58,345 nt of DNA from an uncultured Clostridia bacterium. Its GTDB lineage: Bacteria > Bacillota > Clostridia > Lachnospirales > Lachnospiraceae. The stretch lies in contig CAOKDX010000018.1 in the NCBI GenBank assembly GCA_948467395.1, forward strand, positions 1 to 58,345. The letters run 5' to 3'. Position 1 is the first letter of the stretch; every line of letters begins with the position of its first letter. Below are positions 9,043 to 58,345 of this stretch, one piece after another. The translations under genes were made by a program, and so were the position numbers. The notes below the pieces were generated by a model, which saw nothing but the letters and a program-made list of their open reading frames with translations, was not told the origin of the DNA and ran no database searches.

Positions 9043-9072
9043 TTGACAGGAATAAATGAGAACCGTTATAAT
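9043..9072 (+). promoter_or_regulatory. Consensus sigma-A promoter of the fructosamine kinase gene
   Basis: Perfect TTGACA (9043-9048) and perfect TATAAT (9067-9072) with an 18-base spacer. The start codon follows 34 bases after the -10 box, with AGGAAGGTGAT as ribosome binding site. No operator-like inverted repeat is evident. Confidence 0.8.
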
Positions 9073-40611: not shown

Positions 40612-41162
40612 TATACCTCTCCTTCTTCAATATTTATATTCTCTGCCTGTTCGGCAAGGCTGAGATCCTCGTCATTCAGCAGCTTGTCGGGATCCAGCAG
40701 CAATTTCACTGTATCCCCTACCTTTCCGATACCATAGACATACTTGTGATGCTGTTTGTCCGAGCGCCCGATGGCCGGCGGCGGAAGAATATTCTCTTCC
40801 CTGATCTCAACTACCTCAGCAATCTGTTCTACAATTAGGCCGACTACTGTGGACTTCACGTTGATCACAATAATACAGGTCCTGTCATTGTACTCAAAGG
40901 GCTCCTGCTTGAACCGCAGCCGTACATCGATAACCGGGATCACCTTGCCTCTCAGGTTGATCAGGCCCTTGATGTAATCCTCTGTCTCCGGAATCGCTGT
41001 GATTGCCTGAAACTGGATAATCTCATTGACATACTGGATCTTCAGGCCGAAATACTCATTTCCTGATTTAAAGGTCATATATTTGCCCTTCTGGGTATCC
41101 GGCTCGCCCGATGCAGTATTCGATTCAATTACCAATCCCTTTAATTCGCTTGTTTCTTCCAT
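40611..41162 (-). CDS. cheW: Chemotaxis coupling protein CheW
   Basis: Links receptors to CheA. The CheW domain covers about residues 20-165 ([34 protein letters not shown]), followed by a short acidic tail. I used the ATG at 41162 (183 residues); a GTG at 41183 and an ATG at 41174 are less well placed. It lies between cheA and the MCP it probably serves. Confidence 0.95.
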
Positions 41163-41189
41163 GTAGATTACCATCCCTTTCACTAAATT

Positions 41190-43358
41190 TTATTCAATCA
41201 ATCCTCCTGGATCCAGTATCAGAGCGATACTGCCGTCTCCCAGCTGCGTACAGCCCGAAAGACCTTTTACTTTCTTAATATAAGGAGGTATTGTCTTTAC
41301 TACGATCTCCTGTTCTCCGATGAGTTTATCAACAAAGAGACATATCTTCTGATCCTCCACTTCAAGAATCAGCATCATACCATCCTCTACTGCCTCCTTG
41401 TATGAGGTCATTCCATACCACTCACCCAGGCGGATCACCGGGAAACAGTCGCCGCGGATCATAATGTATTCGTCCCCGTTGGGCTCGTGGATCATCATAT
41501 CCTCCCTGACGCGGACAAACTCCTTAATGACGCCGGTCTCCAGTACGAAGGATGAATTTCCGGTCTCCATCACAATCCCGTCGATGATGGCCAGCGTCAG
41601 CGGAATTTTCAGGTTCATCACGCTTCCCATCCCCGGCGCACTCTCGATATCCAGCGTGCCTCCGATGGACTGAATATTCTGGACTACCACGTCCATACCT
41701 ACGCCCCTGCCGGAATACTCCGTGATCTGCTCATTGGTAGAGAACCCGGGAAGGGTGATAAACTGGTACACCTCTTTGTCCTTATAGGCGCTGTCCGGCT
41801 TGCTGTCATCCAGCAGCCCCTGCTTTCTTGCCTTCTGGAGGATCTTCTCACGGTCGAGTCCCTTTCCATTGTCGATGACGCTGATCCACACCTTTCCGGC
41901 TTCCATTCTGGCTGCCAGCGTGACCTTGCCCTTATCCGGCTTTCCGCTGTCCAGTCTCTCTTCGTTAGTCTCAATACCGTGATCCACCGCATTTCTTACC
42001 AGATGCATCAGGGGATCCGAAATATGTTCGATGATATTCTTATCTACCTCGGTGGTCTCCCCGATCATTTCAAATTCAATATCCTTACCCAGCTTCCTCG
42101 ACACATCGAATACGATGCGGTTCATCTTCTGGAAAATATTCGTCAAAGGAACCATCCGCATAGACATAATGACGTTCTGCAGATCCGTGGAAATCTTCGA
42201 CATCTGTGCCGCCGCCTTATAAAAGCTGTCAAGGTTCAGGCCCGGCACCTTCAGATCCGGGTTCTGGAGTACAACGGATTCGGAAATCACCAGCTCTCCG
42301 ATCAGATCCATCAGCTGATCCATCTTGCTTACATTTACGCTGATAAAGGATTTTTCAGCCTTCGGCTTATCCCTCGCCAGCTTCTTCTGCTTGCCGGGCT
42401 CTTTGGATTTGATCACGTAATCGCCGGGCGCCACCTGAGGTTTCGCCGGTTTTTCCGGTTTTTCCTCTTCCTTCTTTGTCTCCCCTTCCTTTGCTTCCTG
42501 TGCTTTGGTCTCTATCTCCTCCACACTGGAATCCAGGTCGATCTGCAGCTCCTCTCCGCCGAAATCAAATCCGTGCAGGAATTCCTCTGCCTTACATTCA
42601 AAAATATCTACTCTCTCTATGGCGTAACCGACATTGATCATCTCCCGGAGTTCCTCTTCACTGCACTGTGCCTGCAGCAAAATACGGAACCCGTCTTCCA
42701 GGATCACATCCGCGCTCCCCTCGTCCGTAATAATGTCCTCCGGGGAATACAGCAGATCCTCTGCCACCTCCTTCAGTGCATATACCGTCTTATATGCGTG
42801 AATGTTGGACATCTCCGTATCCGGATAAAATGTCAGATAAATCTTATAAAACCGGCTGGCACTTGTGGCAACAGGCGCGATATAAAACTGCTTTGGCTCC
42901 TCATGTACGTTTTTCGGCACCGGCTTTTCTTTTTCTTCCCCTCCGCCGTCACTCTGAATCGCATTCAGAAATCTGTCAAGCTCCGCAATGATATCGGTAG
43001 CGTCTCCGTCCACCTCATCTCCATTGCGGATCTTATCCATTTCTCCTGTAATGAAATCCGCCACGGATAATACATGCTCCACCAGTTCAAGATGCGGAAC
43101 ATTATCCGGCCTGGATTCCCTCAGATAATAAAAGACATCCTCAAGCTTATGCGAAACAGCCGTTATGTTATCAAACATCATGATACCCGAAGATCCTTTA
43201 ATGGTATGCATCGTTCTGAATATTTCATTTATGCTGTCTTCATCAAAGCATTCCGCATCCTTCTGGTCAAGAACCATATCCTGCAGCTGCTCCAGCAGCT
43301 GTTCATTCTCGAACAGATACATATCCAGCATGCCCTCTGTGTTAAATTCCTCAGCCAT
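41190..43358 (-). CDS. cheA: Chemotaxis histidine kinase CheA
   Basis: A 722-residue kinase with all five domains: P1 HPt with His51 (TMHTIKGSSGIMMFDN), a P2 response-regulator docking domain (about 165-260), an acidic and lysine-rich linker, P3 dimerisation (VSKMDQLMDLIGELV), P4 ATPase (HLVRNAVDHGIE, VIDNGKGLD, GRGVGMDVV) and P5 CheW-like. It phosphorylates CheY and CheB. It sits in the middle of the che run. Confidence 0.97.
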   Translation of the reverse strand: MAEEFNTEGMLDMYLFENEQLLEQLQDMVLDQKDAECFDEDSINEIFRTMHTIKGSSGIMMFDNITAVSHKLEDVFYYLRESRPDNVPHLELVEHVLSVADFITGEMDKIRNGDEVDGDATDIIAELDRFLNAIQSDGGGEEKEKPVPKNVHEEPKQFYIAPVATSASRFYKIYLTFYPDTEMSNIHAYKTVYALKEVAEDLLYSPEDIITDEGSADVILEDGFRILLQAQCSEEELREMINVGYAIERVDIFECKAEEFLHGFDFGGEELQIDLDSSVEEIETKAQEAKEGETKKEEEKPEKPAKPQVAPGDYVIKSKEPGKQKKLARDKPKAEKSFISVNVSKMDQLMDLIGELVISESVVLQNPDLKVPGLNLDSFYKAAAQMSKISTDLQNVIMSMRMVPLTNIFQKMNRIVFDVSRKLGKDIEFEMIGETTEVDKNIIEHISDPLMHLVRNAVDHGIETNEERLDSGKPDKGKVTLAARMEAGKVWISVIDNGKGLDREKILQKARKQGLLDDSKPDSAYKDKEVYQFITLPGFSTNEQITEYSGRGVGMDVVVQNIQSIGGTLDIESAPGMGSVMNLKIPLTLAIIDGIVMETGNSSFVLETGVIKEFVRVREDMMIHEPNGDEYIMIRGDCFPVIRLGEWYGMTSYKEAVEDGMMLILEVEDQKICLFVDKLIGEQEIVVKTIPPYIKKVKGLSGCTQLGDGSIALILDPGGLIE

Positions 43359-43398
43359 ATTCTTCTCCTTTCCTGCATATTCTTTAAATGTTCCTTCG

Positions 43399-43791
43399 TT
43401 ATATCAGATCTAATTTCTTCAGCGCCTGTTCAAACCGGCCCTGATCAATCGGTTTACCGGAATATATGGTGCATCCCAGTTCAAATGCCATCTTGACATT
43501 TTTCTCCTCATTGAGCGCAGTGGTCATGATTACCTTCACCGCCTGGTCCTCCGGGACATTCCGTTCCTTCTCCAGGTTGCGGATCCCCACCAGTGCCTGA
43601 TATCCATCCATAACAGGCATCATGATATCAAGACAGATGAGATCATAAGGTTCACCATCTTCCAGGGCCATCATAAACGCATCCACTGCTTCCATTCCAT
43701 CCACAATAACGTCGCATTCACCATATTTGGACAGGAAATTTACCATAAACTTCCTGGTCACAAAATCGTCTTCAGCCAATAGAATCTTCAT
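43399..43791 (-). CDS. cheY: CheY-like response regulator
   Basis: A 130-residue single receiver with Asp8-Asp9, phospho-acceptor Asp55 (CLDIMMPVMDGY) and a lysine in SGKPI. Its position between cheB and cheA makes it the obvious phosphate acceptor from CheA. Whether it drives a flagellar motor cannot be told, since no motor gene is in view. Confidence 0.9.
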   Translation of the reverse strand: MKILLAEDDFVTRKFMVNFLSKYGECDVIVDGMEAVDAFMMALEDGEPYDLICLDIMMPVMDGYQALVGIRNLEKERNVPEDQAVKVIMTTALNEEKNVKMAFELGCTIYSGKPIDQGRFEQALKKLDLI

Positions 43792-43803
43792 GTTATCTCT
43801 CCT

Positions 43804-44832
43804 TTACATTTTATTTAATAATGTATATGTTCTGCCCGCGATATCAGACAACTTTTCCTGACGCTCCACCGCTCCCAGATCATATGCTACCTTAGGCATA
43901 CCATAGACGATACATGTCGATTCGTCCTGCCCGATAGTCCTGGCTCCGGCCCTTCTCATGGCCAGCAGTCCCTTTGCACCATCACCTCCCATTCCGGTTA
44001 AAATAATTCCTACTGCATCGGCACCTGCTGTCTTTGCAACGGAATCAAATAAAACATCCACTGATGGACAATGTCCGTTTACCTTCGGTCCGGGTTTAAT
44101 GTCAACGCGGTACTCCCCGCTGACCTTTACCAGCCTCATATGCCGGTCCCCTCCCGGGGCGATAAGCATGCGTCCCGGCACAACCCGATCCCCGGTCTCC
44201 GCTTCCTTCACCTGGATCCGGCAGTTGTCATTCAGCCTCTTCGCATACATCTTGGTAAACCCGGGGGGCATATGCTGCACTGCCACAATTCCCGGAATAT
44301 CCGTACCGAACTCCTTAACAACACTTAAAATCGCCTCGGTGCCGCCTGTGGAAGCACCGATCGCCACAATAAGATTATTTTTATTTACAGAAAGGTGCGA
44401 CTGTTGCTGCACCATAGCTGTTTTCCTCACATTATCAATCTGAGCCGCCGCTGCGATCTTCACCTTCACCAGAAGGTCATTTTTTACAAACTCCTCCAGC
44501 TGCGCCCGGTTTGACACGGCAGGCTTTGCCACGAAATCCACAGCCCCGGCATTCAGCGCGTCAAACACCTTGTCACTCAGAGAACTGATCACCACAGTAC
44601 GCTGCGGATACTGGGGCATCAGCTTTCGCAGAAACTCAATTCCGTTCATGCGGGGAAGCTCGATATCCAGCGTCATAACATCCGGATGGTGGGCCAGGAT
44701 GGCATCCCGGGCCGCAAAAGCGTCGCCGGCAGTAGCCACGATCTGGATCGCCGGATCCTTGCTCAGATTCTGGACCAGCATTTCCCTGAAAACGATTGAG
44801 TCATCCACAACAAGCACCTTAATTGGTCCCAT
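43804..44832 (-). CDS. cheB: Protein-glutamate methylesterase CheB
   Basis: Removes methyl groups from chemoreceptors for adaptation. The 342-residue protein has a receiver (acceptor Asp56 in TLDIELPRMNG) and a methylesterase domain with the triad Ser160 (IGASTGG), His186 (QHMPPGF) and Asp283 (GMGGDGAKG). It overlaps neither neighbour; cheR lies four bases upstream. Confidence 0.97.
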   Translation of the reverse strand: MGPIKVLVVDDSIVFREMLVQNLSKDPAIQIVATAGDAFAARDAILAHHPDVMTLDIELPRMNGIEFLRKLMPQYPQRTVVISSLSDKVFDALNAGAVDFVAKPAVSNRAQLEEFVKNDLLVKVKIAAAAQIDNVRKTAMVQQQSHLSVNKNNLIVAIGASTGGTEAILSVVKEFGTDIPGIVAVQHMPPGFTKMYAKRLNDNCRIQVKEAETGDRVVPGRMLIAPGGDRHMRLVKVSGEYRVDIKPGPKVNGHCPSVDVLFDSVAKTAGADAVGIILTGMGGDGAKGLLAMRRAGARTIGQDESTCIVYGMPKVAYDLGAVERQEKLSDIAGRTYTLLNKM

Positions 44833-44835
44833 AAA

Positions 44836-45654
44836 TCAGCCCTTCCCTTCTTTTTTTCTAAACACAGATGACTGGACAGTTTCAAACAGCCCACTGCCGC
44901 TCTCTAATGACTCCGTCAGCCCAATGATAAGATATCCCCCGGGTTCCAGGCAGTCGTAAACCTTCTGTACCAGCTCCCTCTTTGTGTCTCTATCAAAGTA
45001 TATCATAACATTGCGCAAAAATACAGCATGCATTTTTTTCCTGAAAGGAAACGGGTCCATCAGGTTAAATTTGCGGTAGATCACCTGCTGCTTCAGCTCA
45101 TCCTTCACCTGATACTGGCTTCCCCCTGCCAATGGCACAAAAAAATGTTTCTTCCAGTGCTCTGGAACATTCTTAAGCCCCTCTGCCTTGTAGACCCCCC
45201 TCATGGCCTGCTGCAGCGCTTTCGTGGAAATGTCGGTAGCAAGGACACGATAATCCCACTGGTTCCGTTCCAGTCCCAGAAAGTCCGTGATCACCATGGC
45301 AAGCATATAGGGCTCCTCTCCAGTGGACGCCGCGCCGCACCAGACCCGGATATCCTTACTGCCGCGTTCCTTCTGCCTGATCCACGGCAGTATTACATTT
45401 CTCAGGCATTCCAGATGTTCAAATTCCCTCATAAAAAAAGTATAATTGGTAGTCAGAAGATTGACCAGCATCTTTTCCTGCGCTCCCGCCTGATTGTTCA
45501 GCACCGCCTGCATAAAATCCTTAAAGCTGTTCCATCCGCCCGTCCGGATGAAGTTTTCCATCCGCCCCCTGACGATCTCTTTCTTGTCTTTCAGCTCTAT
45601 CCCATAATGTTGTTTCATATAGACCGAAATCTGCTGAAATTCTTCCTCTGTCAT
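44836..45654 (-). CDS. cheR: Chemotaxis methyltransferase CheR
   Basis: Methylates receptor glutamates using SAM. The 272-residue protein shows the helical N-terminal domain, TTNYTFFMRE, and the SAM loop VWCGAASTGEEPYMLAM. There is no TPR or other extension. Partner of CheB just downstream. Confidence 0.96.
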   Translation of the reverse strand: MTEEEFQQISVYMKQHYGIELKDKKEIVRGRMENFIRTGGWNSFKDFMQAVLNNQAGAQEKMLVNLLTTNYTFFMREFEHLECLRNVILPWIRQKERGSKDIRVWCGAASTGEEPYMLAMVITDFLGLERNQWDYRVLATDISTKALQQAMRGVYKAEGLKNVPEHWKKHFFVPLAGGSQYQVKDELKQQVIYRKFNLMDPFPFRKKMHAVFLRNVMIYFDRDTKRELVQKVYDCLEPGGYLIIGLTESLESGSGLFETVQSSVFRKKEGKG

Positions 45655-45706: not shown

Positions 45707-46768
45707 TTAACATAATTGACGCGATATTTTGTCACATATCCCAAAAATATCTGCATTGAACTTCTGCCCCGCCTCCCCTCTCATTATATCCAGGGCAGCT
45801 TCTCTGCTATGGTTATCTTTCCCGGTAAGTCTGCAGTATTCCGCCATCACTGCCACAATCTGGGCTGCCAGCGGGATCTCATCCCCCGCCATCCCTGACG
45901 GATAACCGCTGCCGTCCCAGTTCTCATGATGGCACCGGGCAATATCGATGGATGTATTGATAAAATCATTATAATCGTTATTTACATAGAGGTCGCCCAA
46001 AAGCTTTGCCCCTATCGTAGTATGCTTCTGTAATGCAGCCGTCTCCTCCTGCGTGAGCGCCCCTTCCTTTCGAAGAATCTCTGCCGGGACTCCGATGTTC
46101 CCGATATCACAGAGCGGCGCCGCCAGTTCAATGGCGTCGATAAACGTATCCGAAATCTTATCCTCAAAAAGAGGGGAGAGCTGCATCCCCTGGGCAAGAA
46201 TCTGGCAGTTCCGCTTCAGGCGCCCGGTATAGCTCTCATCATAATCGGCATTCTGGGCAGCAATATGTGCCAGGGCATACAGTATATTTTTCTTTTCCTG
46301 TTCCATCTGCCGCAGCTGTTCGCTCACTGAGATCTGCAGTCTCCGGTTCATCTCCGCCAGCTTGTGCCCCGTTTCATACAGCCGCAGATGAACCCCCACC
46401 CGGGCCTGTACCAGTTCGGCGATAAAAGGCTTAGTGATATAATCGGCCCCCCCAAGCCGGAAACCCTCCACAATATCCTGGGGGTTATCGAAGGCCGATA
46501 TAAATACAATAGGAATACTCCGCGTCGCCTCTTTCGACTTCAGTCTTCTGCACAATTCATAACCGTCCATCTCCGGCATGGAAATATCTGTCAGGACAAG
46601 ATGCGGAAGCTGTTCCTTCACCAGTTCCAGCGCCTGCTTTCCGCTTTCCGCCAGAACGGGAATGCAGTTCATATTTTTTATGATTTCTTCCAGAATCAGC
46701 CGGTTCGGCTCAAGATCATCAACGATCAGAACCCTCTGACCCTCCATGCTCTTCTCTTCTTCACTCAT
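45707..46768 (-). CDS. Response regulator with a degenerate HD-GYP domain
   Basis: A 353-residue protein: receiver (acceptor Asp61 in LTDISMPEMDGYE), coiled linker and an HD-GYP-like domain. The catalytic HD pair reads Cys220-Asp221, the following lysine is Asn224, the upstream histidine of the canonical GEH motif is missing, and the late metal aspartate is Ala309. KHTTIG, CHHENWDGSGYP remain. A normal cyclic-di-GMP phosphodiesterase would need the lost residues, so this is probably not an active one. It lies between the PAS kinase and cheR. Confidence 0.88.
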   Translation of the reverse strand: MSEEEKSMEGQRVLIVDDLEPNRLILEEIIKNMNCIPVLAESGKQALELVKEQLPHLVLTDISMPEMDGYELCRRLKSKEATRSIPIVFISAFDNPQDIVEGFRLGGADYITKPFIAELVQARVGVHLRLYETGHKLAEMNRRLQISVSEQLRQMEQEKKNILYALAHIAAQNADYDESYTGRLKRNCQILAQGMQLSPLFEDKISDTFIDAIELAAPLCDIGNIGVPAEILRKEGALTQEETAALQKHTTIGAKLLGDLYVNNDYNDFINTSIDIARCHHENWDGSGYPSGMAGDEIPLAAQIVAVMAEYCRLTGKDNHSREAALDIMRGEAGQKFNADIFGICDKISRQLC

Positions 46769-46772
46769 GCCA

Positions 46773-48212
46773 TCACCCCTCTATCTGCAGGATATCATTT
46801 AATTCGGCATACTGTGCCGTTATCCTTTCATAGTTTTCCTTTTGGATCGCCATCTTCAGCCGCAGGACGATCCGCTTCACATCCGGCGGTGCCTCCAGAG
46901 TCAGCTGCCGCACGGTCTCCATAAACATCTCCGCCTTTTCCCAGTTCTCCATCTCCACACAGAGGATCAGCTTGGACAGCACCTTTTTCAGATTATCCCG
47001 ATTCTCCTGTGTGCCGTATTTCTTAATATTGTCCTCTTCCTCCTCTTCCGGGCCGTCCGGCCAGTTGTATTCTCCTGCCGCGGGCTGCGCCAGCCAGTCT
47101 CCCTGTCCCACTGGATGGTTCTCCTCTTCGCAGATGCCCACCCAGATGGAGAAGGAGAAAGTACTTCCCTTATTCTTCTCACTCTCAACCTCGATGGCGC
47201 CCCCCATCAGCTCAGCCAGCTGCTTACTGATATTCAGTCCCAGGCCGGTGCCGCCGTATTTTCTTGAAATGGATGCATCCACCTGTGAGAAGCTCTGGAA
47301 AAGCTTATCCTTATCCTCCTGATCAATGCCGATACCCGTGTCCTTCACGATAAAAAACAGTTCCATGCGGTCTTTCACCTGCGCCGTCTTCACAACCTCC
47401 ACCGTGATCTTTCCCACTGATGTGAATTTCTGTGCATTGGACAAAAGATTATTCAGGATCTGTACAATCCTCAGCTCATCCCCGATAATATGCTCCGGTA
47501 TCTGAGGGGAAACTGTCATGAAAAAGCCAAGCCCCTTTTCCGTGATCTTGTTTATATGGTTGTCTCTGACATAATCCAGCATATCGCGGAAATGGAACCG
47601 GCGGGGCTCCAAAGTGAACTTCCCTGCCTCCAGCTTTGAAAAATCCAGAATATTATTAATAATCTTATTCATATCACCGCAGCACCGTTCAATAAGCCGC
47701 AATGACTTCTCCACTCTGCCGTCAATCTCCTCATCCAGCAGCTCTTTCACATTTCCCAGTATTCCGTTTACCGGCGTCCGCAGTTCATGGGTCACATTGG
47801 CGACAAACTCCGATTTCACCTTCATCGCCTGCTGCGCTTCTTCCCTTACCTGCTCGATTTCCCTTCCCAAATGCTCTCTCTCCAGCATGTCATTCGCCAT
47901 ACATATGTATAAGCCGGAAAAATCATCCGTGACGATCTTTGCCTCTACCGGGAAACAGGTTTTATTCGTCCGGTATGCCACAAGATTATGCACCTCTGCA
48001 TCGAGCGGAAACCAGGTATCCGAACTGTTTGTACAAGCCTTAAACATATTGGGGAAAATCTCATCGATCTTCCTGCCCCTCAGTTCATCTTTCCCCCCCA
48101 GCTTCTCCCTTGCCACCGCATTGGCATAAGAAATAACCCCGGAATGGTCAAATGTGATCACAATCTCAAGGGCGTTTTCCATTGGGAAGGTCAGACTCAG
48201 ATTCTCTTCCAT
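46773..48212 (-). CDS. Cytoplasmic PAS histidine kinase
   Basis: A 479-residue kinase without transmembrane helices. PAS domain about 10-110 (FDHSGVISYANAVA), HisKA with His142 (ANVTHELRTPVNGI), ATPase domain (about 250-365) and a C-terminal tail of about 110 residues, acidic then helical. The ATG at 48212 has AGGAGG nearby. Unusually, two terminator-like hairpins lie in the gap before it. It is likely to phosphorylate one of the adjacent REC/HD proteins, which is inferred from position. Confidence 0.9.
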   Translation of the reverse strand: MEENLSLTFPMENALEIVITFDHSGVISYANAVAREKLGGKDELRGRKIDEIFPNMFKACTNSSDTWFPLDAEVHNLVAYRTNKTCFPVEAKIVTDDFSGLYICMANDMLEREHLGREIEQVREEAQQAMKVKSEFVANVTHELRTPVNGILGNVKELLDEEIDGRVEKSLRLIERCCGDMNKIINNILDFSKLEAGKFTLEPRRFHFRDMLDYVRDNHINKITEKGLGFFMTVSPQIPEHIIGDELRIVQILNNLLSNAQKFTSVGKITVEVVKTAQVKDRMELFFIVKDTGIGIDQEDKDKLFQSFSQVDASISRKYGGTGLGLNISKQLAELMGGAIEVESEKNKGSTFSFSIWVGICEEENHPVGQGDWLAQPAAGEYNWPDGPEEEEEDNIKKYGTQENRDNLKKVLSKLILCVEMENWEKAEMFMETVRQLTLEAPPDVKRIVLRLKMAIQKENYERITAQYAELNDILQIEG

Positions 48213-48230
48213 CGCAATCCCTCCTGCACC

Positions 48231-48260
48231 AAAAAAGGGCCGGCTGAGAACCGCAGCCCT
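48231..48260 (-). terminator. Terminator-like hairpin directly before the PAS kinase
   Basis: On the minus strand a short GC-rich hairpin (arms around GGGCTG and CAGCC/GGCCC) is followed by six U. It ends about 20 bases before the ATG of the PAS kinase, just ahead of its ribosome binding site, which fits either a second terminator or an attenuator. Confidence 0.55.
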
Positions 48261-48314
48261 CTGAAAGACGCCAGGCGCCTTCCACTTCATGAAACGAGAA
48301 CTTATCAAAAAGGT

Positions 48315-48350
48315 AAAAAAGGCAACAAAAAAATCTCTTTTTTTGCTGCC
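48315..48350 (-). terminator. Terminator after the REC/HD-GYP gene
   Basis: A 13-bp stem (48321-48333 against 48338-48350, one G-U pair), 4-base loop, then six U on the minus strand. It lies 18 bases past the stop of the REC/HD-GYP gene. Confidence 0.9.
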
Positions 48351-48368
48351 TGCTTTGTAAACTATGTA

Positions 48369-49451
48369 TCATTGAAATTCAAACATCTTTATCACTTCTA
48401 CAACATTGAAGAAATCCACTTTAGCAAGCCCAAAACACTCCAGCATATCCGGTGAGAACAAACCGCATTCACCGCCCATTATCATATCAAATGCGATATT
48501 ATTCGCATATACACTCTTATATACTCTCGGACTCACCAGCGCATCATAGACATCGGCAATCGCCACGACCTGCGCGCTTATAGGAATTTCTTCTCCTACC
48601 AGATGATCCGGATAACCATTCCCATCCCATCTCTCGTGATGATACCGGCAGATCTCATAACAATACTTATAAAACTCGCTGTCATGATTCCCATAAAACT
48701 TCTCCAGTATATCACAGCCAATGGTTGTATGGGTCTTCATAACCTCAAATTCCTGTGTTGTCAGGCGTCCCGGTTTCAGCAAAATAGAATCCGGAATGCC
48801 AATCTTGCCTATATCATGCAGGGCAGACGCTCTGGTAATCTCTGAAATCTGAGTATCCGTAATGCCATATTTCGGAAAATACTGCTGAAGATACTTGAGC
48901 ATGATCCTGGTAAAATATTTGATACGCCTTGTGTGCTCTCCTGTCTCGGCACTTCTGAATTCTACCACCGAACTCAGTGCGTCAATCATAAATTCATTGG
49001 TCTCGCGAATCTCCTTCTCCTGGGCCCGGATGGCTTTCTCCTGCTCCTTCAGGCGCTGTTCCATATTCCGCTTATTCTGATACAGTTCTATGATGTTCCT
49101 GCTTCTTCTCTTAACAATGCGCGGATAGAACGGTTTGTGCATTACATCCGCAACGCCGTATGTATAGGCCTTTCCCTCACTATTGCTGACGCTCTCGCCA
49201 GTAATCAGTATGACCGGGATCTTCTCGATGAGATTCTGTTCTTTCATATAATCAAGAACCTTAAATCCATCCATGACAGGCATCACAATATCCAGCAGGA
49301 TCAGGACGATATCTGTGCTGTTCTGAATCTGTGTGACTGCCTTCTGACCATCCTCCGCTTCCAGTATTTCATACTCCTCGCGGAACATCTCCGCCAGTAC
49401 GGCGCGGTTTACTTCTTCATCATCAACAATCAAAATCTGCTGCTTATTCAT
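48369..49451 (-). CDS. Response regulator with HD-GYP phosphodiesterase domain
   Basis: A 360-residue protein: receiver (acceptor Asp54 in LLDIVMPVMDG), coiled linker and a complete HD-GYP domain with His173, His212-Asp213, Lys216 (LHDIGKIGIPDSIL), His241, His271-His272, GYP at 279-281 and Asp300. HD-GYP domains usually hydrolyse cyclic-di-GMP, so this is a phosphorylation-controlled phosphodiesterase. It has its own promoter and terminator. Confidence 0.95.
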   Translation of the reverse strand: MNKQQILIVDDEEVNRAVLAEMFREEYEILEAEDGQKAVTQIQNSTDIVLILLDIVMPVMDGFKVLDYMKEQNLIEKIPVILITGESVSNSEGKAYTYGVADVMHKPFYPRIVKRRSRNIIELYQNKRNMEQRLKEQEKAIRAQEKEIRETNEFMIDALSSVVEFRSAETGEHTRRIKYFTRIMLKYLQQYFPKYGITDTQISEITRASALHDIGKIGIPDSILLKPGRLTTQEFEVMKTHTTIGCDILEKFYGNHDSEFYKYCYEICRYHHERWDGNGYPDHLVGEEIPISAQVVAIADVYDALVSPRVYKSVYANNIAFDMIMGGECGLFSPDMLECFGLAKVDFFNVVEVIKMFEFQ

Positions 49452-49550: not shown

Positions 49551-51479
49551 CTAACTCAGTATCTCATTCGTCTCCTGCAGCACCTTGCGCATTTCCTCTG
49601 TCATACGGGTGACACTGGTCATATAATCCTTTATCATCAGTCCCTTGTCTGACATCTGGGTGGTATTTTCTGCCGCTCCTGCCACAGTGGCCAGCATCTC
49701 GCTTGTGGCCTCATTGAAATTCTCTACTACCCGGTTAACGTCATCAATTGCCCGGTGGATTCCCTCATCGCTGGCCTGGGCATTTCCCACCGCCGTCTTG
49801 GAGTTCTCCGACAAGGCCTGGATACTGGACGCCACAACGGCGAATCCCCTTCCTGCTTCTCCTGCCCTGGCGGCCTCAATGGAGGCGTTCAGGGAGAGGA
49901 GATTGATTTCCTCCGCAATGTTCTCTACATTGCTTGTCATTACATTGTACTGCTCCACACTGTCGTTAATATGGTCCATGGATCCGATAATGTTGGAATT
50001 CAGTTCCTGCAGCTCATTCATATGGGTGATGACATTTTCCATTTCCCTGCTGCTCTCCACCCCGGAATCCCGGATCACATCGGCATGCTCCTTCACCACG
50101 GCAATCTTTTCCGTCAGCTCTTCAAAAATACTCTGCAGCCGGTTATTCATATCGAGAACCTTCTCATTGATATCGCTCACCTTATGCCGCTCCCGGCGGA
50201 TGCAGTCCAGCATATACTGATAACAGTTCTCCTTCTCGTTGATCCCCCGGGCAAGGGCAATGGCCATCTCCCGGCAGGAGCGGTAACCGCAGGCGTGGCA
50301 GTCGAAGTTTCTGTCCTGCTCCGTAAACTTGCCGAGGGCCTCAAAGCTCTTTTCAATCTCTGTCTCGGAGATCGTGGTGACGTTCTCGTTCTTCTTTTTG
50401 TAGCCCCGCAGGAAATCCTCCAGTCTCAGTTCTTTATCAAACTGGGCAAACTGCTTATCCACACCTTTCCGGGTAGTATTTTCCTTCCGTCTCTTCCTTG
50501 CGTGCTTCTCCACATCGTACATAATATCATTCATGGCAAAGAGATGATAGTTGACACCGGTAGCCGGTCCCCCGTTGCAGCCGTTTTCACAGTTCAGAAC
50601 GTCAAACACATCCGGCATATCCTCCCTCTTCAGCTCACAATATGTATTCAGATCCTTGTACAGCTTCTCGGTTCCCTCGGAGGTGATCACCTCCATATCC
50701 GGATCATGGATCAGCAGATTGCTCATCAGTCCGCCCGGCTTCGGATAGATGGCACCCTCCATACCCTGCTGGCCGTCAAACTCAAATTCACTGTATATCT
50801 TGATTTTGGGAAGCTCTACCCCATTCTCCTTGAAATAATCCTGGAGATGCTCCATCGTGACATTATAGTCGATCACTCCCGTATCATGAAACTCGTCAAT
50901 CTTTGCAATGCACGGGGACAGCGCTGCAATCTTCCCCCGGAATCCCAGCACCTTTCTCATATAGATGGCGATACACATCATCGGGCTCTGAACCGGGGAC
51001 AGCTGCGGGATCAGCTCATGCTTGTGCTTCTCAATATAGTTCACCACCGCCGCACAGGGCTGGGAGATTACCTTGGTCCCGGGATTCTTCTTCATATATC
51101 GGATATGCGCCCAGGTACATATATCCGCCCCCAGTCCTACATCATAGATGGCTTTCACCCCCTGATTGCGCAGCCACTGCAGGGCATGGCGCCAGTTTCC
51201 GTCAAAGGCGATCTTAATGGCGGGCGCTGCGATCATGGCCACTTCTTTCCCATCCCTTAGATCCTGAAGAAACGCATCGATATCATCCCGGAAAAATCTT
51301 GCCCCATGGGTACAGGCATTGATACAGGCACCGCATTTAATACATTTCTCATCATCAATCTCAATCCTCAGCTTCTCATTCTCATCAAACCGCCCCACAT
51401 TGGCGTCCCCCACCGGACATACCCTGACACAGGCATTGCACCCAACACATTTATCTGTTCTCACATCAACAATACTCAC
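49551..51479 (-). CDS. [FeFe]-hydrogenase H-domain / chemoreceptor fusion (putative H2 or redox sensor)
   Basis: A 642-residue soluble protein with no transmembrane helix. Residues 8-60 hold two 4Fe-4S clusters (Cys11/14/17/21 and Cys46/49/52/56). Residues 75-330 are an [FeFe]-hydrogenase H-cluster domain with ligands Cys142, Cys190, Cys297 and Cys301; Lys193 is kept, but the proton-transfer cysteine is Pro141 and the following M in loop 3 is Leu295. A further Fe-S motif uses Cys394, 397, 402 and 419. Residues 430-642 are an MCP signalling rod with the tip AEEINLLSLNASIEAARAGE. It resembles sensory (HydS-type) hydrogenases but with a chemotaxis output. Confidence 0.9.
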   Translation of the reverse strand: MSIVDVRTDKCVGCNACVRVCPVGDANVGRFDENEKLRIEIDDEKCIKCGACINACTHGARFFRDDIDAFLQDLRDGKEVAMIAAPAIKIAFDGNWRHALQWLRNQGVKAIYDVGLGADICTWAHIRYMKKNPGTKVISQPCAAVVNYIEKHKHELIPQLSPVQSPMMCIAIYMRKVLGFRGKIAALSPCIAKIDEFHDTGVIDYNVTMEHLQDYFKENGVELPKIKIYSEFEFDGQQGMEGAIYPKPGGLMSNLLIHDPDMEVITSEGTEKLYKDLNTYCELKREDMPDVFDVLNCENGCNGGPATGVNYHLFAMNDIMYDVEKHARKRRKENTTRKGVDKQFAQFDKELRLEDFLRGYKKKNENVTTISETEIEKSFEALGKFTEQDRNFDCHACGYRSCREMAIALARGINEKENCYQYMLDCIRRERHKVSDINEKVLDMNNRLQSIFEELTEKIAVVKEHADVIRDSGVESSREMENVITHMNELQELNSNIIGSMDHINDSVEQYNVMTSNVENIAEEINLLSLNASIEAARAGEAGRGFAVVASSIQALSENSKTAVGNAQASDEGIHRAIDDVNRVVENFNEATSEMLATVAGAAENTTQMSDKGLMIKDYMTSVTRMTEEMRKVLQETNEILS

Positions 51480-51551
51480 AATCCCTTCCTCCTTTTGTCT
51501 GTCTCTCCCCTCTGCCTTCCCATGCTGTCACGTTCTTTCTTATTATATAAA

Positions 51552-51580
51552 ATTATAAAATACCGAATGGCTGGTGTCAA
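51552..51580 (-). promoter_or_regulatory. Consensus promoter of the H-domain chemoreceptor
   Basis: Perfect TTGACA (51575-51580) and perfect TATAAT (51552-51557) with a 17-base spacer on the minus strand, about 73 bases before the start codon. It is one of the strongest promoters in the window. Confidence 0.85.
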
Positions 51581-51626: not shown

Positions 51627-54600
51627 TCAGGACAGGAACTGTTTCAGCACGGATATAAACACATCCATGTCAAGCGGCTTGGCTATATGGGCGTTCATGC
51701 CATTTTTCAGCGCCGCCTCCTTATCCTCTTCCAGGGCATTTGCCGTCATGGCAATGATCGGCAGGTCCCGGACATCCTTCCTTGGCAGATTCCGGATGGT
51801 CCGGGTCGCCTCATATCCGTTCATAATCGGCATCTGGACATCCATCAGTATCGCATCATAATAATTCTCCTCCGACGCCGTCACCATAGATACCGCATCC
51901 GTTCCGTCTGGCGCCGACTCTACAACAAAGCCCGCCTCTGTCAGAATCACTTCTGCAATCTCACGGTTCAGTTCGATATCCTCCACCAGAAGAATGCGCT
52001 TGCCACTGAAATCCGCCAGAGTCCATGCGTCCGCTTTCTTATCCTCTTTATCCACAAGATTGTTGGCGGCAAGCAGTGCCGATTTCAAATCCGACATAAA
52101 GAGAGGCTTGGCGCAGAATGCCGTGATCCCGGCCTCCTTTGCCTCTTCCTCAATATCCGACCAGTCATAGGCGGTGAGGATAATGATGGGAGCCTCATCC
52201 CCCACCACCTTGCGGATCCTCCTTGCCGTATCTACCCCGCTGGTCTCCGGCATCTGCCAGTCAATAATATAGGTGTGATAGGAATCCCCTTCCTCATAGG
52301 CACTTTTTGCCCGGTACACCGCCTCTCTTCCGGAAGTCGTCCACTCCGAACGGAGTCCGATATGCTTTAGCATCTTGCTCACACTGTCACAGGTATTGAA
52401 ATCATCATCCACCACCAGCGCCCGCAATCCCTGGAGTTCCCGGATCTGCTCCGCATTCTTCTCCACATCCTGCAGCTTCAGTGTAAATTCCACGGTAAAT
52501 GTACTCCCTTTGCCTACCTCACTCTCCACCGTGATGGTGCCGTTCATCATCTCAATGATATTTTTCGTGATCGCCATGCCCAGCCCCGTGCCCTCGATGC
52601 CGGAACGGGTGGCCGTATTTTCCCGCTCGAATGGTTCGAATATGTGATCCACAAAATCCTTCGACATGCCGATACCGTTGTCTTTAATAATGAAAATATA
52701 ATCGCCATATCCGTGGCGGAATGTAGTCTTCTGCATGATGCGGAAGGAGATAGTCCCCCCCGCCGGCGTATATTTCACCGCATTGCTCAGAAGATTAATA
52801 AATACCTGGTTGATCTTCAGGGCATCCGCGATGACGTCCTCATTGGCCACCTCAAAGGTGTCTATAAACAATTCCAGCTGCTTTGCCTTTACCTGGGGCT
52901 GAATGATATTGACCAGATTATGCATCAGCTCCGATATATTGCACTCCTGTTCCTTGATCTGCACCTTGCCGCTCTCGATCCGGCTCATGTCAAGAATATC
53001 ATTGATCAGGCTCAGCAGATGGTTACTGGAGGACAGCACCTTCTGCAGGCAGTCCCGCACCTGGTCCTTATTATCAATATGGCTGACAGCAATGGTAGCA
53101 AATCCGATAATGGCGTTCATCGGGGTCCGGATATCATGGGACATATTGGACAAAAAGGTCGTCTTTGCCCGGTTTGCATGCTGCGCCTGCATCAGCGCAT
53201 CCTGCAGCGCCTGAGTCTGCTCCCTCTGCTTCTGCACCTGGTCGGTAATATCCCGGGACACCACCATCACCATAATATCATCCGTGTCGTTATCCTTCGT
53301 CATCACAAATGACTGCCGGACACACATCTGCTTCTCCGGATTCTCCCATGCCCAGTAATCCACGGTAACCTCCGCGTCCCCCTCTTCAAACCGCTCCCGC
53401 AGGGAATCCGTATTGACTACAGAGCCGTAATCCTCCATGGATTCCTCCAGCACATGCTGTTTCCACTGCTCAAAGCATTCCGAGGCACGGCACGGCGCCT
53501 GCAGTCCGACTCTCTCAAGAAGTGAGACCTCCTGTCCGTCAGATATGCGGGTGACGTCCTGATCGATCCTGTCCTGGGTCAGGTTAAATTCAAAGGTGCA
53601 GAAAGAATTGGATGTAATGGCGATACGGTACTGCCTTTCCTTGCGGTCCGCCAGAGACATTTCTTCCTTGATGCGCATCTCTTTTTTCTTCACCTCAGTA
53701 ATATTCTGACGGATAAAGAGAACCTTGCTGACTCTGCCCTCTTTCCTTTCCAGGCAGATAATGTTCATATGCTCCCACTCCTCACGGCCATCCCGCAGCA
53801 CATGACATTCCAGAAGCCGGTCATTCTGCTCTTTCATGGAAGCAGCAATGGCATCCAGACCGATCTCTCCGGCAAATTCCTCCCTTTCACTCTCCTCGAT
53901 CATCAGGGAACAGAGGTGCCTGAACAGCTCCTCATAGCTTCCGCTCACCGGAATCCCGCTGTTCTCCGGCCTGGTCCCCATCAGATACTGGTAGGTGCCA
54001 TTTTCCAGATCCACCATGGTATAACGGGTAAAGAGGGTATTGACGCCATGGATGACATAGCCCATCTCCCGGTTCTCCCTCTCCAGCAGCTTCTTTTTCC
54101 TGCCAGCCCGCACCACAAGGGTGATAATATAGATTACAAACAGCAGGATCAGCATAAATTCCAGCTGGATTCCCACAAGATTTTCGTCCCGTATCATCTT
54201 CTGGGTCACATTCTTCGGGAAGGTCTGCACCAGAACGAAATCGTTTCTAGGCAGATAGATAACACAGATATTATCCGTACCGCAGTCCGGGGCACAGATA
54301 AAAGCTCCCTCACCCTGTCTCTCAAATATCTTTTCCGCCTCATCCGCCGTATCCCTATCGATCACCCCGGAACCAGTCAGCAAATTCAGCAGCTTTTCGT
54401 TGTACTCCCTGTCATCCGAACCGGCTACCACCCTGCCCTCTGGTGTGCACAGATATACCTCTGCCTTTTCGCCAAAATAAGAGGTAGCCAGCATATCCTG
54501 CAGATATTCCTCTGCCAGATAAGCTCCCCGGAGCACTCCGATGATCTCGCCCTTATACCTCACGGGGGCATAGAAGTTCACCATCGTTTCGTCAAAGAAA

Positions 54601-55019
54601 TGTGAATCAAATACAACGGAAATCCCGTCCTCTCCCCTCATGCCATTGTTGTAGAAATCCCGGTCACGCACATCCGCTGTCCGCCCGTCCGCAGCATGGT
54701 CCCTGCCTTCTGCATCCGTATATATCAGCGCGTCAAAAAGCGTGTTCTCCTCCATTTCCTGCAGCATCTCCGACGTGATCACCGGCTCAGTCAGACCCTC
54801 GCCCACAAAATATGAATGCACATTGATGCGGTTCAGGGCATCGCTCAGCTCCTCGTCCAGCTGTCCCGCCTTCAGGCGGGCCGAGTCCGCCGCATAATTC
54901 TTGTTGCGCTCCTCCATGCGCACGCTGTTTTGTGATGTATACCAGGCAAAGAGGGCGATAATCGCCGCCAAAAGGATCACTACATAAAGGATTTCCTGTA
55001 TCGATTTCTTTCTTTTCAT
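51627..55019 (-). CDS. Large hybrid sensor kinase with Cache, PAS and two receiver domains
   Basis: An 1130-residue kinase. Transmembrane helix about 10-27, Cache-like sensor about 30-280, second helix about 286-304, a PAS-rich region (about 320-610), HisKA (NMSHDIRTPMNAIIGF, histidine near 640), ATPase, receiver 1 (IDWQMPETSG) and receiver 2 at the end (MDVQMPIMNG). It has the same kinase-receiver-receiver order as the 35703-38252 kinase, so the two look paralogous. It has no HPt; the HPt protein at 38701 could serve both. It lies 45 bases after the glycolytic terminator. Confidence 0.92.
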   Translation of the reverse strand: MKRKKSIQEILYVVILLAAIIALFAWYTSQNSVRMEERNKNYAADSARLKAGQLDEELSDALNRINVHSYFVGEGLTEPVITSEMLQEMEENTLFDALIYTDAEGRDHAADGRTADVRDRDFYNNGMRGEDGISVVFDSHFFDETMVNFYAPVRYKGEIIGVLRGAYLAEEYLQDMLATSYFGEKAEVYLCTPEGRVVAGSDDREYNEKLLNLLTGSGVIDRDTADEAEKIFERQGEGAFICAPDCGTDNICVIYLPRNDFVLVQTFPKNVTQKMIRDENLVGIQLEFMLILLFVIYIITLVVRAGRKKKLLERENREMGYVIHGVNTLFTRYTMVDLENGTYQYLMGTRPENSGIPVSGSYEELFRHLCSLMIEESEREEFAGEIGLDAIAASMKEQNDRLLECHVLRDGREEWEHMNIICLERKEGRVSKVLFIRQNITEVKKKEMRIKEEMSLADRKERQYRIAITSNSFCTFEFNLTQDRIDQDVTRISDGQEVSLLERVGLQAPCRASECFEQWKQHVLEESMEDYGSVVNTDSLRERFEEGDAEVTVDYWAWENPEKQMCVRQSFVMTKDNDTDDIMVMVVSRDITDQVQKQREQTQALQDALMQAQHANRAKTTFLSNMSHDIRTPMNAIIGFATIAVSHIDNKDQVRDCLQKVLSSSNHLLSLINDILDMSRIESGKVQIKEQECNISELMHNLVNIIQPQVKAKQLELFIDTFEVANEDVIADALKINQVFINLLSNAVKYTPAGGTISFRIMQKTTFRHGYGDYIFIIKDNGIGMSKDFVDHIFEPFERENTATRSGIEGTGLGMAITKNIIEMMNGTITVESEVGKGSTFTVEFTLKLQDVEKNAEQIRELQGLRALVVDDDFNTCDSVSKMLKHIGLRSEWTTSGREAVYRAKSAYEEGDSYHTYIIDWQMPETSGVDTARRIRKVVGDEAPIIILTAYDWSDIEEEAKEAGITAFCAKPLFMSDLKSALLAANNLVDKEDKKADAWTLADFSGKRILLVEDIELNREIAEVILTEAGFVVESAPDGTDAVSMVTASEENYYDAILMDVQMPIMNGYEATRTIRNLPRKDVRDLPIIAMTANALEEDKEAALKNGMNAHIAKPLDMDVFISVLKQFLS

Positions 55020-55054
55020 AAACTACTCCTCCAGAATGTACCAGTTCAGGGATG

Positions 55055-55107
55055 AAAAAAGAACAGGCGCTACAATCTGGCTTATATCGCTTGTAAACCG
55101 CCTGTCC
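55055..55107 (-). terminator. Terminator of the gap-pgk-tpiA run
   Basis: A 9-bp outer stem (55061-55069 against 55099-55107, one G-U pair) and a 4-bp inner stem, followed on the minus strand by UUUUUU (55055-55060). It begins 15 bases past the tpiA stop. Confidence 0.85.
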
Positions 55108-55121
55108 TCCCTACTTAGAAA

Positions 55122-55868
55122 TTATGCGTTTACGATCTTTCCGAAATCCGGTTTCAAAGACGCTCCGCCAATCAGTCCCCCGTCTATATCCGGTTTGGCA
55201 AGAAGCTCCGCCGCATTGCCGGCATTCATGGAACCGCCGTACTGGATGCGGACCGCCTCTGCTGTCGCCGCGTCATACACCTCGCCGATCACCTGACGGA
55301 TCGCTGCACAGACCTCCTGCGCCTGGTCCGCTGTGGCCGTCTCGCCGGTCCCGATAGCCCAGATAGGCTCATAGGCGATCACTGCCCGCTTCGCCTGATC
55401 TGCCGTTACATTCTGAAAGGCGATCTTGATCTGCATACGGATCCAGTCCACATAGATTCCCTGTTTTCTCTGGGTCAGCGTCTCACCGCAGCAGATAATG
55501 GGAGTGATATTATGTTCAAAGGCTTTCCGCACCTTCTTATTCACAGTCTCATCTGTCTCGGCAAAGTACTCTCTTCTCTCCGAGTGGCCGATGATCACAT
55601 ATTTTACCCCGGCATCCACCAGCATATTGGGAGAGATCTCGCCGGTATAGGCGCCGCTCTCTTCAAAGTAAAGATTCTCCGCTCCGATATTTACATTGCT
55701 CCCCTTTACCGCCTCTACTGCGGGAACAATATCGACAGCCGGCACACAGAATACCACATCTACATCATCATTTTTCACCAGTGGCAGCAGCTCGTCAATC
55801 AGGGCCTTCGCCTCACTGGGAGTCTTATTCATTTTCCAGTTGCCCGCAATAATCCTTCTTCTGGACAT
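55122..55868 (-). CDS. tpiA: Triose-phosphate isomerase
   Basis: Interconverts dihydroxyacetone phosphate and glyceraldehyde 3-phosphate. The 248-residue protein has the N-terminal [15 protein letters not shown] with the catalytic histidine, [11 protein letters not shown] with the catalytic glutamate, and the phosphate loop GGSMN. GGAGGG lies before the ATG. It follows pgk after a gap with repeats. Confidence 0.98.
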
Positions 55869-55910
55869 ATAAATCCCTCCATACTCTCAATTTATAAGCT
55901 TGACTTTTTT

Positions 55911-55936
55911 TGACTAGTTATTTATCATTTGCTGCG
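55911..55936. repeat. 26-bp direct repeat, downstream copy of the pgk tail
   Basis: Identical over 26 bases to 55971-55996, exactly 60 bases apart. Similarity continues a little further with small differences. The sequence covers the last codons and stop of pgk, so this copy is a duplicate outside the gene. Confidence 0.9.
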
Positions 55937-55944
55937 AACTACAA

Positions 55945-56005
55945 AGGTGTAGCCGCAGCCATATTTTTTCTGACTAGTTATTTATCATTTGCTGCGGCTA
56001 CACCT
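55945..56005 (-). repeat. 15-bp inverted repeat at the pgk 3' end
   Basis: 55945-55959 is the exact reverse complement of 55991-56005, which lies in the last codons of pgk. The middle arm (55946-55959) can instead pair with the other side (about 55931-55943), giving two competing hairpins. Neither is followed by a U run on the minus strand. Confidence 0.75.
55971..55996. repeat. 26-bp direct repeat, copy within the pgk tail
   Basis: The copy that includes the pgk stop codon and last few codons (AANDK stop). See the partner at 55911-55936. Confidence 0.9.
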
Positions 56006-57174
56006 GGGAGGTCTTTTCCTTCCAGGAATTCCAGGGATGCGCCGCCGCCCGTGGAAATATGGGTCATTTTATCCCCAAAACCAAGCTGGTTCACTGCCGC
56101 TGCGCTGTCGCCGCCTCCGATAATGGTAGTAGCGCCGTCCAGCTCTGCCATCGCTTTCGCCACCTCAATGGTTCCCTTGGCGAAATTCGGCATCTCAAAG
56201 CATCCCATCGGTCCGTTCCAGACAACCGTCTTTGCACCCTTAATGGCGTCTGCAAATAATTTAGAGGTTTCCGGTCCGATATCAAGTCCCTCCATATCGG
56301 CAGGAATCTCCCCGCGCCCTGCCGTTTTATAATTGGCGTCATTGGAAAAATCATCTGCCACTACAGTATCAATCGGGATCAACAGCTTCACGCCCTTCTC
56401 CTCCGCCTTCTTCTCCATGTCAAGGGCATACTGTTTGTAGTCCTCCTCAAGAAGGGATTTTCCCACCTCTTCTCCGTGTGCCGCCATAAATGTATATGCC
56501 ATTCCTCCTCCGATGATCAGCGTATCCACCTTGTCAAGAAGGTTATTGATCACGGATATTTTGGATGAAACCTTTGCCCCGCCAAGGATAGCCACAAAGG
56601 GCCGTTCCGGATTATTTACCGCATTTCCGAGGAAGTCAATCTCTTTCTGCATCAGATAGCCTACTACAGCGGTATCTACATACTGGGTTACTCCCACATT
56701 GGAGCAGTGTGCCCGGTGCGCAGTTCCGAAAGCATCGTTGACAAACACATCAGCCAGAGAAGCAAGATCCTTAGAGAACGCCTCTTCATTCTTGGTCTCC
56801 TCTTTGCGGTAACGCGTATTCTCGAGAAGAACAACCTCGCCATCCTTCATGGCCTCTACGGCTGCTCTTGCATTGTCGCCAACGACGCTGGCATCTGGCG
56901 CAAATTTCACGTCCTGTCCAAGAAGCTCCGTGAGACGGGCTGCCACTGGTGCCAGGGAGAGCTCTGGTTTCGGTTCCCCCTTCGGCTTGCCCAGGTGAGA
57001 GCACAAAATTACTTTGCCGCCATCGGCAATAAGCTTCTTGATCGTCGGCAGGGCTGCCACAAGACGGTTCTCATCCGTAATCTTACCATCCTGCAGCGGC
57101 ACGTTGAAATCACAGCGGACAAGAACCCGCTGTCCTTTTACATTGATATCATCAACAGATTTTTTATTCAGCAT
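55978..57174 (-). CDS. pgk: Phosphoglycerate kinase
   Basis: Transfers phosphate from 1,3-bisphosphoglycerate to ADP. The 398-residue protein starts [20 protein letters not shown] and shows [20 protein letters not shown] and the C-terminal nucleotide loop GGGDSAAAV. The ATG at 57174 has GAGGG five bases upstream; longer in-frame readings lack a better site. It lies between gap and tpiA. The 3' end is partly duplicated downstream. Confidence 0.98.
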
Positions 57175-57341
57175 ATTTACCCTCATTTCTGCAAGGTGAA
57201 CCTCATTCACCTCTGCTATTTTTTTGCGCATAATGCAATGTTTGTGCCGCAGCGCAGACACAAACCTGCGGTAACAACAAAGAGTCCGGCCCTGACGACC
57301 GGACCCCTTTTAGGATCATTGCAATATCTTGTCCTGCAGAC
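57175..57341 (-). other. Structured gap-pgk intergenic region
   Basis: Beyond the hairpin after gap (57283-57305), two overlapping inverted repeats can form: GTTTGTG (57240-57246) with CACAAAC (57259-57265), or CCGCAG (57247-57252) with CTGCGG (57266-57271). Closer to pgk a 7-bp hairpin AGGTGAA/TTCACCT lies around 57193-57212. No clear promoter is visible. Confidence 0.45.
57283..57305 (-). terminator. Hairpin after gap
   Basis: A 7-bp stem (57283-57289 against 57299-57305, one G-U pair) with a 9-base loop, followed on the minus strand by CUUUGUUGUU. A weak or partial terminator that could lower pgk-tpiA transcription relative to gap. Confidence 0.5.
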
Positions 57342-58345
57342 TTATGCCAGCTCGCTGAAGTACTTGATCGTACGAACCATCTGGCTTGTATAAGAATTCT
57401 CATTGTCATACCAGGATACAACTTGAACCTCATACAGATCATCGGATACTTTGGAAACCATAGTCTGTGTAGCGTCAAACAGAGAGCCAAATCTCATTCC
57501 GACAATATCGGAAGATACGATCTCGTCCTCATTGTATCCGAAGGATTCATTTGCAGCAGCCTTCATGGCAGCATTGATTCCCTCAACTGTCACATCACTC
57601 TTCTTAACAACTGCTGTCAGAATCGTGGTGGAACCAGTAGGAGTAGGTACACGCTGTGCAGAACCGATGAGTTTGCCATTCAGCTCCGGAATTACAAGAC
57701 CGATTGCTTTAGCAGCTCCAGTGCTGTTCGGAACAATATTGACTGCAGCAGCACGGGATCTTCTCAGATCGCCTTTTCTCTGCGGTCCGTCCAGAGTCAT
57801 CTGGTCACCGGTATAAGCATGGATCGTAACCATAATACCAGACTGAACTTCTGCATACTTATTCAGGGCGTCTGCCATAGGAGCAAGGCAGTTTGTCGTA
57901 CAGGAAGCTGCTGAAATAATGGTATCCTCTGCTTTCAGTGTCTCATGATTGGTGTTATATACGATAGTAGGAAGGTCATTTCCTGCCGGAGCGGAGATAA
58001 CAACCTTTCTTGCACCTGCATTGATATGAGCCTGTGCCTTATCCTTGGAGGTATAGAAGCCGGAGCACTCAAGAACTACGTCTACGCCAAGCTCACCCCA
58101 CGGGCAGTTATTAGCATCCGGGAAAGCATAGATTTTAATCTCTTTTCCGTCTACTGTGATGGAATCATCGCTGGCAGATACGGAATCTGCTTTCTCATAT
58201 TTACCCTGGGAAGAATCATACTTAAGAAGATGCGCAAGCATCTTAGGGCTTGTCAGATCGTTGATCGCTACTACCTCATAACCTTCTGCACCAAACATCT
58301 GTCTGAATGCAAGACGTCCAATACGTCCAAAACCATTAATCGCTA
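57342..58345 (-). CDS. gap: Glyceraldehyde-3-phosphate dehydrogenase (5' end outside the window)
   Basis: Oxidises glyceraldehyde 3-phosphate to 1,3-bisphosphoglycerate with NAD. The reading frame runs to the window edge and opens with [20 protein letters not shown], so only a few N-terminal residues are missing. The catalytic cysteine is in [13 protein letters not shown], with the usual [13 protein letters not shown] and [14 protein letters not shown]-type loop (here [14 protein letters not shown]). The internal ATG at 58298 is not the true start. Confidence 0.98.

Follow-up and report, generated by a model that had tools for sequence, protein, structure and literature searches.

A putative cytoplasmic chemoreceptor with an [FeFe]-hydrogenase-like sensor domain in an uncultured Clostridia bacterium of the Lachnospiraceae

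We analyzed a stretch of 58,345 bp from an uncultured Clostridia bacterium of the family Lachnospiraceae (contig CAOKDX010000018.1 of assembly GCA_948467395.1; the window hereafter), focusing on one gene that fuses an [FeFe]-hydrogenase-like domain (H-domain) to the signaling rod of a methyl-accepting chemotaxis protein (MCP). It corresponds to contig C18 of a draft genome of 2.99 Mb with a completeness of 97.7%. We consider the chances somewhat better than even that this gene encodes a cytoplasmic chemoreceptor that reads H2, or the H2/ferredoxin redox balance, and sets the activity of the flagellar kinase CheA. In the mechanism we propose, the H-domain would read the gas or the redox balance, the C-terminal [4Fe-4S] module would relay the change in the H-domain to the MCP rod, and the kinase activity of CheA would respond to the rod. 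The gene and its parts were located as follows.

49551..51479, minus strand: H-domain chemoreceptor gene, 642 amino acids, GTG start; architecture common to all 50 members of alignment A2 (see below)
51300..51458, minus strand: two [4Fe-4S] ferredoxin motifs, residues 8–60 (C11, C14, C17, C21, C46, C49, C52, C56)
50565..51248, minus strand: H-domain (Fe_hyd_lg_C), residues 78–305, with cluster cysteines C142, C190, C297, and C301
50223..50306, minus strand: C-terminal CX2CX4CX16C cluster (C394, C397, C402, C419)
49563..50000, minus strand: MCP signaling hairpin, residues 494–639, its signaling tip read from the translation
51488..51493, minus strand: ribosome-binding site AGGAGG, 8 bases before the GTG
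51552..51580, minus strand: sigma-70-type promoter TTGACA-17-TATAAT, 12/12 match, 72 bases before the GTG

The receptor gene is a single open frame. Pfam placed its ferredoxin motifs within residues 7–60 and matched the H-domain as Fe_hyd_lg_C (90 bits, cut-off 22.1), the FeS family PF04060 at residues 392–419 (25.6 bits, cut-off 23), and MCPsignal PF00015 (78.8 bits, cut-off 34.6). No PAS domain was matched by Pfam at E 0.001, and MCPsignal follows the FeS module. The CX2CX4CX16C motif after the H-domain, as in the sensory hydrogenase groups C and D, was present. Alignment A2 contained the window receptor and 49 of 80 named related loci, 50 sequences in all, which we call the window type. Fe_hyd_lg_C and MCPsignal were both matched in every one of the 50, which excludes a chance or assembly join in the receptor frame; PF04060 was matched in 48. 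The eight ferredoxin cysteines, the four H-domain cysteines, and the four cysteines of the C-terminal motif were invariant in all 50 sequences. These cysteines make up invariant ligand sets for four [4Fe-4S] sites: both ferredoxin clusters, the cubane of the H-cluster, and the C-terminal cluster. C121 and C169 were also invariant in this set, and C121 is often threonine in the second type of receptor, type 2, described below.

The receptor lacks a membrane segment: its most hydrophobic 19-residue stretch had a Kyte-Doolittle mean of 1.08, versus 2.73 in the membrane MCP of the window. By structure comparison the receptor had the hydrogenase fold, and no solved MCP was among its best 50 structure matches, which the hydrogenase part dominates. 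An earlier note, made from the letters of the window, had described one frame joining two ferredoxin clusters, an H-cluster domain, a further Fe-S motif, and an MCP rod, with no membrane segment and with a consensus promoter of its own; Pfam and the conserved cysteines, the hydropathy values, and the 12/12 promoter match bore out this description. Perfect TTGACA/TATAAT sites were absent from 60 first-order-Markov copies of the window. One other such site occurs in the window itself (plus strand, position 9043, spacer of 18).

We surveyed 299 genomes of the family for receptor matches at E 1e-60 or better and found them in 63. The best match reached residue 590 or beyond, into the MCP rod, in 57 of these (the receptor genomes) and fell short in 6. 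Two sets of receptors were divided by identity: the window type, in 13 genomes including its own (the others at 42–66% identity), and type 2, mostly at 34–40%. Results showed that co-occurrence of the receptor with flagella and CheA in the family was near-obligate. FliG was found in 56 of the 57 receptor genomes versus 99 of the 242 others, and the sole exception, G174, was 76% complete; CheA was found in 56/57 versus 98/242. The host genome itself contains fliG, two cheA genes (one in the window, the other some 24 kb away from fliG), and 23 MCP domains over cut-off, the receptor included. We concluded that a chemoreceptor role is likely.

We then considered the active site. In a motif alignment to the hydrogenase CpI, the proton-relay cysteine C299 corresponds to P141, M353 to S188, and M497 to L295, and K358 is kept as K193. 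By our own count of alignment positions, E279 corresponds to H125, S319 to S161, and E282 to Y128; of the group A proton path C299/E279/S319/E282, the receptor keeps only the serine. The receptor probably turns over H2 slowly, to judge from the alignment, because this path is broken. The M353 position was serine in 29 and threonine in 1 of 30 family sequences, a hydroxyl residue as in group D (M2e). The proton-path residue E289 of TamHydS corresponds to E196, which was kept in 30/30; it was the sole residue of E252/E289/S249/D265 that could be placed. C169 aligns to the cluster-lining SP segment, and we speculate that it may be a replacement thiol. The receptor fell under both curated cut-offs for groups A and B (134.9 of 450 bits for TIGR04105 and 92.6 of 405.95 for TIGR02512).

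The host genome encodes four H-domain proteins, namely one over the group A cut-off and one over that of group B (L001 and L002), one group B-like protein below cut-off, and the receptor. HydE, HydF, and HydG, the maturases whose absence from the genome would, by the earlier note, refute its reading, were all present over cut-off in the host genome (G000). A second, weaker HydG match on contig C7 was ThiH (TIGR02351, 500 bits, cut-off 380). In this host the diiron site would be assembled in the receptor and H2 would be its ligand, and it is plausible that H2 is the signal in a genome that carries the maturases.

Several results weighed against the proposed reading of the protein as an H2-responsive chemoreceptor. 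The rod part of the predicted model was poor, with most blocks below a predicted local distance difference test score of 60 and two segments below 50. The Fisher p values for co-occurrence with FliG and CheA, near 1e-17, were uncorrected for kinship; moreover, this co-occurrence supports a role in chemotaxis and says nothing on H2, as it is expected of any chemoreceptor. One or two in-frame stops were found in 6 of the 57 best matches (G031, locus L019; G080; G101; G122; G200; G255), all six still being counted among the receptor genomes; these stops are possibly decay or assembly errors. Lastly, HydG, the one maturase surveyed across the family (E up to 1e-120), was found in 132 of the 299 genomes and accompanied the receptor only at the background rate (27/57 versus 105/242, p = 0.66). 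It was found in 19 of the 40 receptor genomes that were at least 95% complete and in 7 of the 13 window-type genomes. A mature H-cluster is therefore not to be assumed family-wide, and the HydG pattern speaks against simple H2 sensing by the receptor across the family.

These HydG counts favor a different explanation, which we regard as unlikely but deserving of serious weight: a redox or gas receptor without a diiron site, in which the four H-domain cysteines would hold only a [4Fe-4S] cluster and the H-domain would report reduction state (or O2, NO, or CO) to the rod, H2 not being the signal. The proline at the proton-relay position is consistent with such a receptor, as is genome G233 (100% complete), where the searches turned up no HydG and no H-domain protein other than a stop-free type-2 receptor. 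Against it stand the three maturases of the host genome and the diiron-site-lining residues, which were as invariant in 15 sequences from HydG-less genomes as in 15 from HydG-bearing ones. The survey is also doubtful as evidence of absence, since 94 of the 191 family genomes with a strong H-domain match (E 1e-80 or better) likewise gave no HydG match at E 1e-120; we rejected it as proof that HydG is missing. The gaps reflect either patchy maturation in the family or a search that misses a clade. Of ten stretches examined, nine surrounded hydrogenase genes and the tenth the HydG gene of G108. HydG was seen only in the tenth; the other nine neither confirm nor exclude HydG elsewhere in their genomes. 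For the HydG-less flagellates in particular, we give rather little credence to the idea that the H-domain is uncoupled from H2 chemistry, in that the receptor keeps its pocket and cysteines and carries only a [4Fe-4S] cluster, the hydrogenase fold having become a redox or gas receptor for swimming that, in the window type, would work without methylation-based adaptation.

The genes around the receptor raised another possibility. The neighboring features of the window were as follows.

39142..45654, minus strand: che cluster (membrane MCP, CheW, CheA, CheY-like, CheB, CheR), downstream of the receptor
45707..49451, minus strand: response regulator-HD, histidine kinase, and response regulator-HD genes, between the receptor and the che cluster
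51627..58298, minus strand: dCache hybrid kinase, then tpiA, pgk, and gap, upstream of the receptor; tpiA, pgk, and gap named from the translation

The receptor could serve the neighboring, non-flagellar che cluster and, by way of the HD-type response regulators, act on cyclic di-GMP or gene expression, not on swimming. We judged this improbable. Two response regulator-HD genes, a kinase gene, and the series cheR-cheB-cheY-cheA-cheW do follow the receptor gene downstream, and a second CheA was commoner with the receptor (26 of 56 CheA-bearing receptor genomes versus 12 of 98 other CheA-bearing genomes). On the other side, che genes adjoined the receptor in only 1 of the 80 named loci, L035 (queries were the CheA, CheW, CheB, and CheR of the window, at E 1e-10); 40 of these loci are 18 kb or longer, and some flanks are short. 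Relaxing the threshold to 1e-5 added locus L086, with a weak CheB match of 34%. The che neighborhood is thus confined to the present species and its closest relative, and we rejected it as evidence of functional linkage. Furthermore, CheA copies in the 57 receptor genomes numbered one in 30, two in 25, three in one, and none in one, with a single copy in 6 of the 13 window-type genomes, and the receptor would be transcribed from its own promoter site. The earlier note had placed the receptor in a shared cluster with cheR, cheB, cheA, and cheW; the genes do follow on the same strand here, and the related loci did not keep this arrangement. Its wider interpretation was likewise upheld in part, in that a chemoreceptor role is likely and the host carries the maturases, and weakened by the unconserved che linkage and the background rate of HydG in the family.

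It is very improbable that the protein is a functional hydrogenase held at receptor arrays by its MCP rod, which would then be a localizing tail: it has a complete ferredoxin relay and all of the H-cluster cysteines, but most of the group A proton path is lost, the host already has group A and group B hydrogenases and a third, group B-like protein, and the MCP tip is conserved as in signaling receptors.

We also compared the rod of the putative chemoreceptor with those of other MCPs. Measured from the hairpin tip to the C-terminus, the arm of the receptor has 108 residues, versus at least 129 in 17 other MCPs of the genome (17 of 20 fetched MCP loci were included). No window-type rod out of 50 carried the methylation consensus; among type-2 rods 11 of 17 did, and among the other MCPs of the genome 15 of 19 (19 of the 20 fetched loci were included). 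Judging from these motif counts, window-type receptors probably signal without methylation-based adaptation, because the consensus is missing from their rods.

A tree of 47 rows placed three rows with histidine kinase output (HisKA and HATPase_c, joined by PAS and GAF in two of the three) among the MCP-fused rows. L164 and L149, which come from one genome, grouped together (100/92); L158 grouped with L165 next to the MCP-fused L157 (98/88). On this tree, the output of the H-domain switched between MCP and kinase more than once. L160, with a PAS domain and a sigma-54 activator domain, fell outside the MCP and kinase rows on a long branch; it is the only sensory row in the tree with glycine at the M353 position and alanine at the C299 position, as in TmHydS. 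In L158, L164, L165, and L160 the ferredoxin and H-domain core of the receptor is joined to outputs other than an MCP rod.

At the class level, 19 of 391 genomes matched the receptor at E 1e-60; 12 of them were outside the family, of which 10 had at least one match into the MCP rod. Names placed 65 of the 80 named loci in the Lachnospiraceae. The nearest named record, L035, showed 97% protein identity and the same flanking genes, and is titled Eubacteriaceae bacterium. The receptor locus of L044, titled Muribaculaceae, has a gene layout nearly that of L043, titled Blautia; the label or bin of L044 is probably wrong. In L035, L037, L038, and L040 the glycolytic trio gap-pgk-tpiA lies ahead of the receptor, as in the window; in L108 it comes after the receptor. 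Tandem genes, with the type-2 copy immediately upstream of the window-type copy, were seen in L038 (7982–9892 and 10001–11926) and L040 (7984–9909 and 10001–11926), and a type-2 copy lies about 5 kb upstream in L056 and L083. By eye, the response regulator-HD protein at 45707–46768 (minus strand) of the window has LCDIG where the one at 48369–49451 has LHDIG, which makes its HD site appear degenerate; the GYP part is kept.

H2 is one of the central currencies of the gut, and the literature examined still describes the sensory [FeFe]-hydrogenases as putative. Here one soluble chain holds both sensor and output, and the readily assayed phosphorylation of CheA makes the sensory hypothesis directly testable. 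If its ligand is H2, the protein would serve gut Clostridia as a hydrogenotaxis receptor; otherwise, the hydrogenase fold would have been reused as a redox receptor. We found no published test of an H-domain chemoreceptor in the literature searched, a scope outside which most subscription journals lie. Ballor, Paulsen, and Leadbetter reportedly proposed in 2012 that H-domain sensors and transducers of termite-gut treponemes act in phosphorelay, methylation, and possibly chemotaxis; these treponemes belong to a phylum other than that of the present receptor. Methanococcus maripaludis is an archaeon. Chemotaxis toward H2 was observed in it, as stated with reference to Brileya 2013 in a passage of PMC4266047 that names no receptor. 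Group C hydrogenase genes were also detected in a gut survey of 2025, which stated that sensory hydrogenases still await characterization (PMC12578642).

The closest precedent is [FeFe] group C2 of HydDB, whose entry, as excerpted, reads 'Chemotactic (putative)', with its role given as undetermined and with putative H2 sensing through MCPs (PMC5037454); the idea of an H-domain chemoreceptor has therefore been in print since 2016. The likeness to our receptor is one of proposed role. Later work, in the part available, discarded group C2 calls from acetogen genomes after checks (PMC9431212). The MCP fusion behind the direct chemotaxis output put forward in the earlier note is real, and its kind had already been named. 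We concluded that the receptor is a new member of a chemoreceptor kind already proposed, of putative function. TamHydS, a putative sensor of group D (M2e), shares the two N-terminal clusters, the H-domain, the CX2CX4CX16C motif, serine at M353, and leucine at M497 (PMC8163306, in the part available). TamHydS has no PAS and, in the text available, no fused domain is described, with alanine at C299 (PMC10407848), whereas the receptor has proline and an MCP rod; this fused signaling domain sets the receptor apart from group D (M2e). TmHydS of group C (M2f) shares the ferredoxin, H-domain, and FeS core followed by a signaling domain, but that domain is PAS, and C299, M353, and M497 are replaced by alanine, glycine, and serine versus MCP and proline, serine, and leucine in the receptor (PMC8163306, PMC10055695, and PMC10407848, each in part). 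The receptor is therefore like group D at two of these positions and like neither enzyme at the third.
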